Source of the DNA: Bradyrhizobium sp. 186
GTDB taxonomy: Bacteria > Pseudomonadota > Alphaproteobacteria > Rhizobiales > Xanthobacteraceae
Reading direction: 5' to 3'
Length of the DNA stretch: 64,000 nt
NCBI RefSeq assembly: GCF_023101685.1
Contig: NZ_CP082164.1
Location: 2,108,001-2,172,000, forward strand
Position 1 is the stretch's first letter, and every line of letters begins with the position of its first letter. The notes under the pieces were generated by a model. The model saw nothing but the letters and a program-made list of their open reading frames with translations, made no database searches and had not been told where the DNA came from. Both the position numbers and the translations under genes were made by a program. Shown in pieces: positions 36,197-40,446 of this stretch.

Positions 36197-36309
36197 GAGC
36201 ATTTGAGGTGGCGCTCCCCGTTTCATCTCCAAACATTCCCAATTCCTTAACCCCCCGTAAACCAACCTCGGCGACCAATGGGCCGACCTCCGTCCGAAAG
36301 CGGCCGCCC

Positions 36310-37461
36310 ATGCTCTCCCGTGAAGAACGCACCCCCTTTTCCGAGTGGTGGTGGACCGTCGACAAGCCGCTGCTCGGCGCGATCCTGGTACTGATGCTGA
36401 CTGGCGTCATCCTGTCGCTGGCGGCGAGCCCGCCGGTTGCGACCCGCATCGGGCTCGATCCCTTCCATTTCTTCAGCCGCCACGTGATGTTCCTGGCGCC
36501 GTCGTTCATGGTGCTGGTCGGCGTCTCCTTCCTGTCGCCGCGGGCGATCCGCCGCTCGGCGCTGATCATCTTTGCGGCCAGCATCATCCTGATCGTGCTG
36601 ACGCTCGCGATCGGCCCGGAGGTGAAGGGCTCGCGGCGCTGGATCACGCTGCTCGGCGTCAATATCCAGGCCTCCGAAGTGGCCAAACCTTCTTTCGTCG
36701 TCATCGCGGCCTGGCTGTTCGCGGAGTCGACAAAACGTCCGGAAATGCCGGCGACCTCGATGGCGCTGGTGCTGCTGTTGATGCTGGTCTCGCTGCTCGT
36801 GATGGAGCCCGATTTCGGCCAGACCATGCTGATCCTGATGGTGTGGGGCTCGCTGTTCTTCATCGCGGGCATGCGCATGATCTGGGTGTTCGGCCTTGCG
36901 GGCGCCGCTGCGGCCGGCCTGTTCAGCGCCTATCTTTTTGTTCCCCACGTCGCAGGGCGCATCAAGCGCTTCATGAACCCGGCCTCCGGCGACACCTTCC
37001 AGGTCGATACCGCGATGGAAGCCTTCTACAACGGCGGCTGGTTCGGGCTCGGACCGGGCGAGGGCATCGCCAAGCGCAGCCTGCCGGACAGCCACACCGA
37101 CTTCGTGTTCGCGGTCGCAGCCGAAGAGTTCGGCATCATCCTGTGCCTCGCCATGCTGGCGCTGTTCGCCTTCGTGGTCATCCGGACGCTGTCGCGCGCC
37201 TATTCCAATGAGGACATGTTCTCGCGCTTCGCGGCCTCCGGCCTTGCGATCCTGTTCGGCGTGCAGGCCGCGATCAACATGTCGGTCAACCTCCAGCTCA
37301 TCCCGGCCAAGGGCATGACTCTGCCGTTCATCTCCTATGGCGGCTCCTCGATCGTGTCGCTGGCCTATGGCGTCGGCATGATGCTGGCCCTGACGCGGCT
37401 GCGCCCGCGCACCGAGGTGGAGTCGATCGGTCGCGCTGAGGCGATGCGCAGCTACGCGTAG
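36310..37461 (+). CDS. ftsW: Septal peptidoglycan glycosyltransferase
   Basis: A 383-aa SEDS-family protein with about ten membrane helices. It polymerises glycan strands at the septum with FtsI. Motifs: KGSRRWITLLGVNIQASEVA near residue 100, VMEPDFGQTMLI near 155, the large periplasmic loop with FYNGGWFGLGPGEGIAKRSLPDSHTDFVFAVAAEE (key Asp in SHTD), and the closing KGMTLPFISYGGSSI. The ATG at 36310 is chosen; the open upstream frame overlaps the repeat region. An IS element follows, separating it from murG. Confidence 0.94.
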   Translation: MLSREERTPFSEWWWTVDKPLLGAILVLMLTGVILSLAASPPVATRIGLDPFHFFSRHVMFLAPSFMVLVGVSFLSPRAIRRSALIIFAASIILIVLTLAIGPEVKGSRRWITLLGVNIQASEVAKPSFVVIAAWLFAESTKRPEMPATSMALVLLLMLVSLLVMEPDFGQTMLILMVWGSLFFIAGMRMIWVFGLAGAAAAGLFSAYLFVPHVAGRIKRFMNPASGDTFQVDTAMEAFYNGGWFGLGPGEGIAKRSLPDSHTDFVFAVAAEEFGIILCLAMLALFAFVVIRTLSRAYSNEDMFSRFAASGLAILFGVQAAINMSVNLQLIPAKGMTLPFISYGGSSIVSLAYGVGMMLALTRLRPRTEVESIGRAEAMRSYA

Positions 37462-37819
37462 TTCTTCGTCATTGCGAGTGAAGCGAAGCAATCCAGAATC
37501 CCTCCGCGGTGACAGTCTGGATTGCTCACATGGGGAATGTGTGTGTCAAGGATGAGCAGTCACCTTTTTGTTCGACTGCAGCCACCTCTTCGTCCCGACC
37601 GCGGGTTCTGCAGGATGGCGCGCGCAGATCAAGTCAAGGCCGGCCTGTTAGGGCCGCCGCGAAGCGGCTTGGCCTTGAGTTGAGCGAGCACGCCATCATG
37701 CTTGGTGCGTTGGGCCGATAGGAGCTCCTCGCGTTGGCGGTTCTGTCAGGGCATCTGCCATCCTCGCATTTGCGATCCAAGGGTCGAGCCGGTTCGACGA
37801 TCTGGGTTGCTTGCCAGAT

Positions 37820-37940
37820 CAAACTCACATTCGGTCGTCGCACAAGGCGACTGCACCACGATTCCGCTTGCGGCGGGCAGGCTCGAGAGGACGAGGCCAT
37901 TCTTCGTTGCGGCGTTTGAAGCCATGCAATCCATCGGTTC
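37820..37940 (-). ncRNA. Candidate bridge RNA guide region of the IS element
   Basis: Read on the minus strand, TGGATTGC (37933-37926) equals the left target flank up to the C of the CT core. CGAAG (37906-37902) is complementary to the right target side CTTCG. Then GGAATC (37865-37860) equals the element's end at 39293-39298, and ATGTGAG (37830-37824) is complementary to the other end CTCACAT (37525-37531). This is target loop then donor loop, the order known for IS110 bridge RNAs, and it lies downstream of the transposase as in the IS1111 group. The right target match is weak (5 bases). RNA ends and fold are not determined. Confidence 0.5.
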
Positions 37941-38040
37941 GTCCACCCGGATCTTCCGAGACTGATCGGGCCTCGGCAGATGGGTTATGGTTCTTTCGTT
38001 GCGCGCGGGCGGCGAAGCACGCCGCTTGGTGCGGTCCGGA

Positions 38041-39222
38041 TCAGGCGGCGGGCTTCATCACGGCCCCCTCGATGGTCTCGCCCGCGGTGACATACTTCCA
38101 CAAGGTCACGAGAAGCTTGCGCGCCAGCGCCACGATCGCGCGCTTGCGGCCTTGCGGGCTTCGCTCCTTGAACCAGCGCGTCAGGGCCGACTGCGGCTGG
38201 TGACGTATCCACAGCCAGGCGAGCTGGATCATTGTGGTCCGCAGCCTGGGATTGCCGGCCTTCGACACGCCCTGCTCGTGCCGGATGCCTCCGCTTTGCC
38301 ACGGCGTCGCCGCAAGCCCCGCATAGGCGGCGACCTGGCGGCGGTTGGAGAACTGCCGGTAGAACGCCTCCGACCAGAGCACGGCCGCAAAGTTGGCGCC
38401 GAGCCCTTTCAAGGCCAGCAGCATCGCCACCGGATCCGGCGCGACCTTGTCTGCAGCGTTCTTGTCTGCAGGCTTCCGGGCTGCGGCCAGCAGAGCATCT
38501 CGCGCGGCCTCGACCGCCTTGATCTGTTCCAGAAGCAGTTCGACCCGATCGAGCTCGCGGCCGATCTGCGCCTTCAAATGCGAAGGCAGCTCCCGCCCGT
38601 CGCCCGTGCGCAAGGCCTCAAGCCGCGCCCGCCGATTGCGCCGCAGCGGCACGTAGTCGGATATCCCCTGCGCGAACAGAAGACCCTTGATCCGGTTCAC
38701 ATGCGTGATGCGCTCGGCGATCAGCGTCGCTCGTTCGCGACACAGCCTGCGCCGGTCCTCCTCTTCAGGCGAGGGCGCAACCACCATCGCACAGACCCGC
38801 GGCTCGCCGCGCTTGTAGGCCAGAAGCGCCCGCAACAGCGCCTCGCCATCGAGCCTGTCAGTCTTGGCCCGCCGCCGCCGTCGCGACGTCGCAATCGAGG
38901 CGGGATCGACCACGTGGCTCTCAATGCCGTTCTGTTGCAGAACACGGTGCAGCCAGAACCCGTCCAGCCCAGCTTCCTGGATCGTGATGATCGGATAGCT
39001 CTCGCGGGTCCTGGCCTCCGCCTTGCGCCTGAGTTCCGCAAACAGCTTCATCAGCTCAGCCGTATCGCCGGCCGTGACGCTGTGCCTGGACATCTTCTCG
39101 CCCGTACCAGGCGAAAGTGACGTAATCACCCACGTCGAACGGCTCAGTTCCAAAGACACAAAAATTGCGCCAAACTGCGTCCGGATAGCGGTCGGTCCGT
39201 CGGAAGGATGATCGAGCAACAT
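38041..39222 (-). CDS. IS110-family transposase (DEDD/serine recombinase)
   Basis: A 393-aa IS110 recombinase. The RuvC-like N-terminal domain has acidic residues E25 (in VSLELSRST, where the first Asp is usual), E83 (IQEAGLDG), D122 and D125 (KTDRLDGEA). A coiled-coil segment (about 205-245) leads to the C-terminal Tnp domain with LKGLGANFAAVLWSEAF, then YAGLAATPWQSGG with the catalytic-type serine S310, and SKAGNPRLR. The frame is intact, so the element may be active. The family uses a bridge RNA to pair donor and target DNA. The ATG at 39222 lies 77 bp from the element's edge. Confidence 0.93.
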   Translation of the reverse strand: MLLDHPSDGPTAIRTQFGAIFVSLELSRSTWVITSLSPGTGEKMSRHSVTAGDTAELMKLFAELRRKAEARTRESYPIITIQEAGLDGFWLHRVLQQNGIESHVVDPASIATSRRRRRAKTDRLDGEALLRALLAYKRGEPRVCAMVVAPSPEEEDRRRLCRERATLIAERITHVNRIKGLLFAQGISDYVPLRRNRRARLEALRTGDGRELPSHLKAQIGRELDRVELLLEQIKAVEAARDALLAAARKPADKNAADKVAPDPVAMLLALKGLGANFAAVLWSEAFYRQFSNRRQVAAYAGLAATPWQSGGIRHEQGVSKAGNPRLRTTMIQLAWLWIRHQPQSALTRWFKERSPQGRKRAIVALARKLLVTLWKYVTAGETIEGAVMKPAA

Positions 39223-39345
39223 CGTCGTCTCCAGGTTGAGGGGTTCAGCAACCTCAGTCTGGCCTCAGACCTGGTCGCTATCCACTCCCCATGGAATCTT
39301 CGCTCCGCTCGCAATGACGGAAAAGTCCCTGTAAAACTCCCCGCC

Positions 39346-40446
39346 ATGGACACGTCTCCCCTGATTCTTCTCGCCGCGGGCGGCACCGGCGGTCATCTGT
39401 TTCCGGCCGAGGCGCTCGGTGTCGAACTGATCCGGCGCGGCTTTCGCGTTCGCCTCGTTACCGACGAGCGCGCGCTGCGCTATAGCGGGCTGTTCAACAA
39501 GGACATGATCGACGTCGTCAGCAGCGAGACCGCGCGCGGCCGCAATCCGCTTCAGCTCGCCTATGCCGGCCTCACGCTCGCCGCCGGCACGCTGTCCGCC
39601 TACAGTCTGATCAAGCGGTTGAAGCCGGTCGCCGTGGTCGGCTTCGGCGGCTATCCGACGCTGCCGCCGCTGATCGCAGCGAAATTCGCCGGCGTGCCCG
39701 GCATCATTCACGATGCCAACGCCGTGCTCGGCCGGGCCAACCGCTTTCTGGCGAGCCGCGTGCGCGCGATTGCGACGTCGTTACCCGGCGTGCTCGACCG
39801 CGATCCGGCGCTCTCTGGAAAGACCACGACGGTCGGCACGCCGATGCGGCCAGCGATCCTCGCGGCTGCCGGGGTGAAATATGCCGCACCTGAAGCGAAC
39901 GGACCGCTCCGTCTGCTCGTCGTTGGCGGCAGCCAGGGTGCTCGCATCATGGCCGACATCGTGCCGGGCGCGATCGAGCGGCTCGAGCCCGCGCTGTGGG
40001 GCCGGCTCATCCTCACCCAGCAGGTGCGCGACGAGGACATGGCGCGCGTGCGCGCGGTCTACGACAAGCTGAAGATCAATGCCGAGCTCGCGCCGTTCTT
40101 CAGCGACCTGCCGGCACGGCTCGCCTCCAGCCATCTGGTGGTGTCGCGCTCCGGCGCCGGTACCGTCGCCGAGCTCGCCGCGATCGGCCGTCCCTCGATC
40201 CTGGTGCCGCTGCCGGGCTCGATCGACCAGGACCAGTTCGCCAATGCCGGCGTGCTGGCCAAGGTCGAGGGCGCGATCCGCATCCCGCAGACCGAGTTCA
40301 GCTCGGACCGGCTGGCCGCCGAGATATCCGCCTTCGCCGCCGAGCCCGCGCGCCTCGCCGTCATGGCCGGGGCCGCCCGCGGCGCCGGCCGGCTCGATGC
40401 GGCCGAACGTTTGGCCGATCTGGTGGTCAAAGTCGCCGGAATCTGA
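39346..40446 (+). CDS. murG: UDP-GlcNAc:lipid I N-acetylglucosaminyltransferase
   Basis: A 366-aa GT28 enzyme that adds GlcNAc to lipid I, making lipid II on the inner face of the membrane. The N-terminal AAGGTGGHLFPAEAL motif is near residue 8, GGYPTLPPLIAA and IHDANAVLGRANR mark the acceptor side, and VVGGSQGAR and SGAGTVAELAAIGRPSILVPLPGS bind the UDP-GlcNAc. The ATG at 39346 is used, 46 bp from the IS border. The upstream IS end might alter expression of murG and what follows, since a polar effect on ftsQAZ would be harmful; some promoter must read through or lie in the element. Confidence 0.95.
   Translation: MDTSPLILLAAGGTGGHLFPAEALGVELIRRGFRVRLVTDERALRYSGLFNKDMIDVVSSETARGRNPLQLAYAGLTLAAGTLSAYSLIKRLKPVAVVGFGGYPTLPPLIAAKFAGVPGIIHDANAVLGRANRFLASRVRAIATSLPGVLDRDPALSGKTTTVGTPMRPAILAAAGVKYAAPEANGPLRLLVVGGSQGARIMADIVPGAIERLEPALWGRLILTQQVRDEDMARVRAVYDKLKINAELAPFFSDLPARLASSHLVVSRSGAGTVAELAAIGRPSILVPLPGSIDQDQFANAGVLAKVEGAIRIPQTEFSSDRLAAEISAFAAEPARLAVMAGAARGAGRLDAAERLADLVVKVAGI

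Follow-up and report, generated by a model that had tools for sequence, protein, structure and literature searches.

An IS1111-group element between ftsW and murG

The window, a stretch of 64,000 nucleotides from Bradyrhizobium sp. 186, holds an insertion element within a cell-wall gene cluster, where its neighbours are ftsW (36208-37461) and murG (ATG at 39346, to 40446). The element ends 46 bases ahead of the murG ATG, and its transposase gene is oriented opposite to ftsW and murG. The features of the locus, in window coordinates, are:

37527..39299, minus strand: IS1111-group IS110 element, spanning one CT core (AG on the minus strand)
38041..39222, minus strand: IS110 family RNA-guided transposase, 393 aa, with E25, E83, D122, D125 and S310-G311 invariant in the clade
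37529..37536, plus strand: subterminal inverted repeat CATGGGGA, right end in transposase orientation
39286..39293, plus strand: subterminal inverted repeat TCCCCATG, left end in transposase orientation
37525..37526, no strand: CT core of the left flank, placed from the sequence and intact half-sites; its partner CT is 39298-39299
37467..37526, no strand: left part of an interrupted palindromic repeat, whose second half-site is intact at 37484-37495
39300..39319, no strand: right part of the interrupted repeat
37544..37549, minus strand: TTGACA, candidate -35 near the element end, of a promoter that would form on end joining

The element belongs to the IS1111 group of the IS110 family. Its subterminal inverted repeats lie within the 7-17 bp of that group (CATGGGGA is perfect over 8 bp, and 10 of 11 positions agree as CATGGGGARTG), and the longer noncoding region is downstream of the gene (514 nt, versus 77 nt upstream). 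Both PF01548 and PF02371 were found in the transposase (38.2 and 61.3 bits; cut-offs 29 and 21.3), which also scored 218 against NF033542 (cut-off 140). The genome carries 23 copies of the element, 19 with identical ends 1-1773 and 4 partial. One locus (L017, genome positions 1280471-1284019) is a tandem pair, in which the right end of the full copy is joined to position 297 of the second at a GAG common to both. A search of the same genome with the IS110 DEDD domain family gave 70 matches, among them several IS110 types beside the present element.

In 45 of 48 scanned elements, TTGA[CT] and the right end were 23-25 bases apart; the other 3 had misplaced ends in that scan. No -10 consensus was found, and the linear element is without a consensus promoter. 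Joining of the ends would put TTGA[CT] at the position of a -35 box, which agrees with the mention of a junction promoter in PMC11187229.

The element lands at one site of a palindromic repeat

The CT core is the meeting point of the left flank, ending in CTGGATTGCT, and the right flank, TCGCTCC..., with a single CT inside the element (39298-39299). The uninterrupted form of the insertion site, CTGGATTGCTTCGCTCCGCTCGCAATGACG, is present as 3 intact half-sites elsewhere in the genome, within two repeats. The copies in this genome are at one site of the palindromic repeat, a few of them in a partial repeat (for example, L014, L025 and L029). Read in transposase orientation, all 22 intact left ends have CGA just before the core AG, and 20 of the 21 intact right ends adjoin a repeat (19 at CAATCCAG and 1, L019, at CAAATCCAG), the remaining one adjoining a truncated tandem copy. 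Intact half-sites of CTGGATTGCTTCG number 63 in the genome, some of which belong to an occupied repeat as its unoccupied second half; a reversed control of CTGGATTGCTTCG gave 0 in the same genome. Past their common part the repeats diverge, with GCGA or GACGA on one side.

Four guide segments in the noncoding end

The original prediction had read a bridge RNA from four short segments in the noncoding end, meeting at the CT core common to the flanks. All four are exact on the minus strand (TGGATTGC at 37933-37926, CGAAG at 37906-37902, GGAATC at 37865-37860 and ATGTGAG at 37830-37824), and the flanks and the intact uninterrupted half-sites bear out the shared core. As now delimited, the guides are:

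37926..37933, minus strand: left target guide TGGATTGC, matching its own flank at 7/7 plus the core C and covarying over 29 distinct targets
37902..37906, minus strand: right target guide CGAAG, 7 bases in many relatives, with CGA before AG in 22/22, covarying
37861..37865, minus strand: left donor guide GGAAT, the earlier GGAATC minus its last C, its third base following the element end
37824..37830, minus strand: right donor guide ATGTGAG, equal to the element end in 60/60 rows

The left donor segment was thus retained in part: GG[A/G]AT is conserved, and because the base after it varies in relatives, the last C of GGAATC falls outside the conserved guide. The shortness of the right-target match, already remarked on in the prediction, was seen again. 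The AA directly 5' of CGAAG does not match this target, and the right guide comprises only CGA plus the core because the landing-site repeats differ beyond that common part.

Among 20,000 dinucleotide-preserving shuffles of the noncoding end, TGGATTGC occurred in 0.9%, CGAAG in 69%, GGAATC in 20% and ATGTGAG in 2.9%, when each was taken singly; all four together occurred in 1 shuffle, and all four in the observed order in 0. The segments in this test were picked after the fact, and the real evidence is the homologue test. CGAAG would be expected by chance alone and becomes credible only through comparison with homologues, which were needed because two of the four segments are common by chance.

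Target guides change with the landing site

Transposase relatives at E <= 1e-80 were present in 55 of 265 genomes of the genus, and such elements are therefore a regular part of these genomes. The homologue set comprised L031-L110, from a scan of genome contigs in which 80 of 87 relatives were kept, and L111-L140, from the search of the 265 genomes. In a first pass, ends were found in 48 elements and anchored guides in 46, of which 43 were usable (L053, L058 and L060 were dropped); over 31 distinct combinations, the left guide matched its own target at 5.68 of 7 bases versus 2.05 for swapped pairs, and the right guide at 4.19 of 5 versus 1.49.

In a stricter pass, ends were called by the left-end motif and TTGA[CT]...TGAG only, without reference to the guides, and a one-base shift was permitted equally for own and swapped pairs. 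This left 60 of 110 loci usable (the window plus 109), with 10 lacking a left end, 33 a right end and 7 a flank or anchored guide; L109 and L124 had both ends and no anchored guide in this pass, although L109 had matched fully in the first. Because some of the 60 rows are the same element in two collections (L032/L112, L038/L115, L039/L116, L041/L114, L043/L120 and L065/L126), each distinct left target entered the test with a single row. These 29 targets are not fully independent, some being near neighbours of one another, and the transposases of the set range from 100% to about 49% identity. The left guide matched its own target at 6.31 of 7 bases versus 2.90 for swapped pairs (s.d. 0.23; maximum of 20,000 permutations 3.86), and the right guide at 4.34 of 5 versus 1.43 (s.d. 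0.22; maximum 2.31), with 0 of the 20,000 permutations reaching the observed left or right match. The left match was 6 or 7 in 25 targets and below 6/7 in 4, the weakest being L068 (4/7) and L096, L102 and the L139/L140 type (5/7); the right match was 4 or 5 in 25 and below 4/5 in 4. Homologues carrying the same segments next to unrelated flanks had been named beforehand as the observation that would speak against the guide assignment. Instead, changes in the target segments go along with changes in the flanks, and changes in the donor segments with those in the ends of the element. The element has guides that match and covary with their targets, as a bridge RNA does.

A close pair illustrates this. 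Of the 10 proteins in the close Bradyrhizobium branch (support 99/97), 8 come from elements that carry TGGATTGC and sit at CAATCCA. L038 and L039 (and L040), whose transposase is 84% identical, carry the guide TGGTCTGC and have a matching landing site, CAGACCA, so that two bases are altered in both guide and target. Judged by these sequences, L038-L040 and the present element represent a natural switch of address. The guide TGGATTGC would address CTGGATTGCTTCG, and a change of AT to TC in the left guide would shift the address to CTGGTCTGCTTCG.

Donor guides change with the element ends

Across the 60 rows, duplicates included, the left end and left donor guide read ATTCC/GGAAT in 27, ATCCC/GGGAT in 21, ATCCT/GGGAT in 10 and ATTCC/GGGAT in 2. 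In 58 of 60 rows, the guide base that matches the third base of the left end changes with it; the exceptions (L075 and L096) are explicable only as G-T wobble. A tree of 46 different proteins requires 6 changes of the end base, and well-supported branches force 5 of these. In every row the right donor guide is identical to the right element end, including 6 rows, from two separate parts of the tree, that read ATATGAG at both places. Thus, guides that match and covary with the donor are also present.

A conserved fold holds the guides in two loops

To the guides, a consensus structure calculated with RNAalifold on 34 relatives adds the following features:

37775..37974, minus strand: predicted bridge RNA core of about 200 nt, downstream of the transposase gene (consensus structure, 34 sequences)
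37889..37944, minus strand: target-binding stem-loop, with stem 37944-37936 / 37898-37889 and inner hairpin 37924-37921 / 37913-37910
37784..37886, minus strand: donor-binding multi-branched domain, with closing helix 37886-37880 / 37790-37784

The fold consists of a 5' hairpin (37974-37958), a long outer stem (37952-37947 / 37780-37775), the target stem and the donor domain. Over the whole fold, 95.0% of 1392 cells pair and 19 of 41 pairs show two-sided changes; in the target-binding stem-loop, helix 3 has 94.4% of cells paired and two-sided changes in 6 of 9 pairs, and helix 4 has 97.1% paired; helix 5, which closes the donor domain, has 97.9% paired and two-sided changes in 3 of 7 pairs. 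The covariation score was 0.243, versus 0.148 (s.d. 0.006) for shuffles and at most 0.069 for slid structures; the structure was derived from the very alignment on which it was counted, which biases the comparison with slid versions in its favour. Folded on its own, the sequence of this element showed no gain in stability over shuffled versions (z -0.39; 67 of 200 shuffles fold as well), and Rfam gave no curated RNA family match up to E = 1 in 37300-39600.

In the consensus fold, the target guides occupy opposite sides of the loop between the target stem and the inner hairpin, and the donor guides lie on either side of a hairpin (37858-37832) within the multi-branched domain, the first G of the left donor guide being drawn within a weak 2-bp helix. 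The expectation that a fold would place the segments in two loops was therefore upheld: the two target guides share an internal loop and the two donor guides a multi-branched one, giving the two structured guide-holding loops of a bridge RNA.

The noncoding region also varies in length. Downstream of the gene it measures 462-522 in close Bradyrhizobium elements versus about 300 in most relatives, a surplus of about 150-200 noncoding bases 3' of the gene that corresponds to 37527-37770; it is likewise long in L047, L057 and L072 (530-599). L098 and L109 carry CATGGAATCT, a 10-base copy of the left-end sequence, past the right donor guide (noncoding offset 231).

The clade has a probable glutamate-first active site

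The four acidic residues and the SG motif of the family are present in the transposase (E25, E83, D122, D125 and S310-G311) and constant in 30/30 aligned proteins. Unexpectedly, the first catalytic residue is Glu in all 30 and in 33/33 rows of an overlapping alignment; among 25 other IS110 rows of the same genome, the motif was readable in 13, and Asp is first in 13/13. In IS621 the corresponding set is D11, E60, D102, D105 and S241 (PMC11208158). The structural alignment starts at model residue 18 versus IS621 residue 4, and this offset of 14 places E25 on IS621 D11, provided there is no gap between. The active site of the clade would thus be EEDD, not DEDD, with Glu at the position of IS621 Asp11.

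Proposed mechanism and alternatives

Alongside the observed ends, copies, target, covariation of guides with targets and donors, conserved RNA fold, and protein family and fold, we propose the following mechanism. The noncoding right end (minus strand, about 37974-37775) would be transcribed into a bridge RNA and bound by the element's own recombinase. The first loop would pair with both strands of the repeat at TGGATTG-CT-TCG, the left guide with one strand and the right guide with the other, and the second loop would pair with the excised circle where its ends are joined, at GGAAT-CT-CACAT. Strand exchange at the CT core by the recombinase would then insert the circle in one half of the palindromic repeat. 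The excised circle, transcription from a junction promoter, the RNA-protein complex and serine-based strand exchange are carried over, by analogy, from IS621 and ISEc11-type elements.

An alternative that we consider improbable is that a short seekRNA of about 80-100 nt finds only the target, with the protein reading the ends through their inverted repeats and the donor-like segments being leftovers of the ends. The ends do carry a conserved inverted repeat, and the predominant RNAs of ISEc11, ISPa11 and ISKpn4, described with target matches, are 82-96 nt, although a longer form is also present (154 nt in ISEc11; PMC11187229). Leftovers would not be expected to behave as the donor segments do: over about 6 changes on the tree the left guide tracks the end base in nearly all rows, the right guide is identical to the end in every row, and both lie in one domain of the conserved fold. 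It is still less probable, and in our view very unlikely, that the conserved RNA serves in regulation, or belongs to the transposase mRNA as a 3' untranslated part, and does not act as a guide. The REP-targeting ISPpu9 is reportedly under the control of two small RNAs (PMC8450116), but regulation does not foresee hypervariable loop letters that track each element's own landing site. That the matches arose by chance, or are target pieces acquired by the element, has a negligible probability: frequent as CGAAG and GGAATC are in shuffles, no permutation over the 29 targets reached the observed matches, which recur at the same two places of the conserved fold.

We therefore hold it almost certain that this is an IS1111-group element with a bridge RNA, whose target loop acts on the repeat and whose donor loop acts on the joined ends for insertion at the CT core; the group, the guide order and the downstream position agree with the descriptions in PMC11187229 and PMC11208160. 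Very probably, then, the element carries a small guide RNA that names both landing place and cargo. Relatives that land elsewhere carry correspondingly different guides, which makes this a well-supported new example of an RNA-guided system of recent discovery.

Significance and comparison with known systems

A guide assignment read from one sequence has now been tested, yielding 29 natural target-guide pairs on one RNA scaffold. The pairs suggest pairing rules for the clade: 7 bases on the left, about 5 on the right, and donor guides GG[A/G]AT and AT[G/A]TGAG. It seems rather likely that we are dealing with a broad, mainly alphaproteobacterial clade of RNA-guided EEDD recombinases, working with Glu where the first metal-binding Asp would be, whose bridge RNAs have in nature come to address more than two dozen targets while keeping a near-constant scaffold. 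If so, the clade would supply orthogonal enzymes already programmed by nature, among them a pair whose re-addressing is near-minimal (TGGATTGC versus TGGTCTGC), and its active site poses a concrete question on enzyme mechanism.

The kind of system is already known as the bridge RNA or seekRNA; what is new is the present element with its guides, and the broader set of pairs. Bridge RNAs are described as having a target loop and a donor loop with guides overlapping at the core, and a multi-branched donor loop in many IS1111 members (PMC11208160); in IS1111 elements the RNA is usually downstream, with the top-strand match 5' of the bottom-strand match (PMC11187229); the present element conforms in each of these respects. 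That IS110 elements target REPs has long been known (PMC1525189), and ISRm19 of Sinorhizobium meliloti, likened here by its description, is also an IS110 family element of an alphaproteobacterial host, REP-associated in 4/4 cases in the table of that paper. In IS621 the RNA lies upstream of the gene, whereas here it is downstream and the donor guides are in a multi-branched loop, as reported for many IS1111 members (PMC11208160); D11 of IS621 (PMC11208158) is replaced by E25. The closest likeness is to the IS1111 seekRNA elements ISEc11, ISPa11 and ISKpn4, as described in PMC11187229, in transposase domains, subterminal inverted repeats, a long downstream noncoding region and two target matches in the same order, and ISPa11 also lands in REP. 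Unlike those three, the present element has another target and other guides, Glu for the first Asp of DEDD, donor guides assigned by covariation, and a transposase of 393 aa, versus the 330-350 printed there for the IS1111 group.
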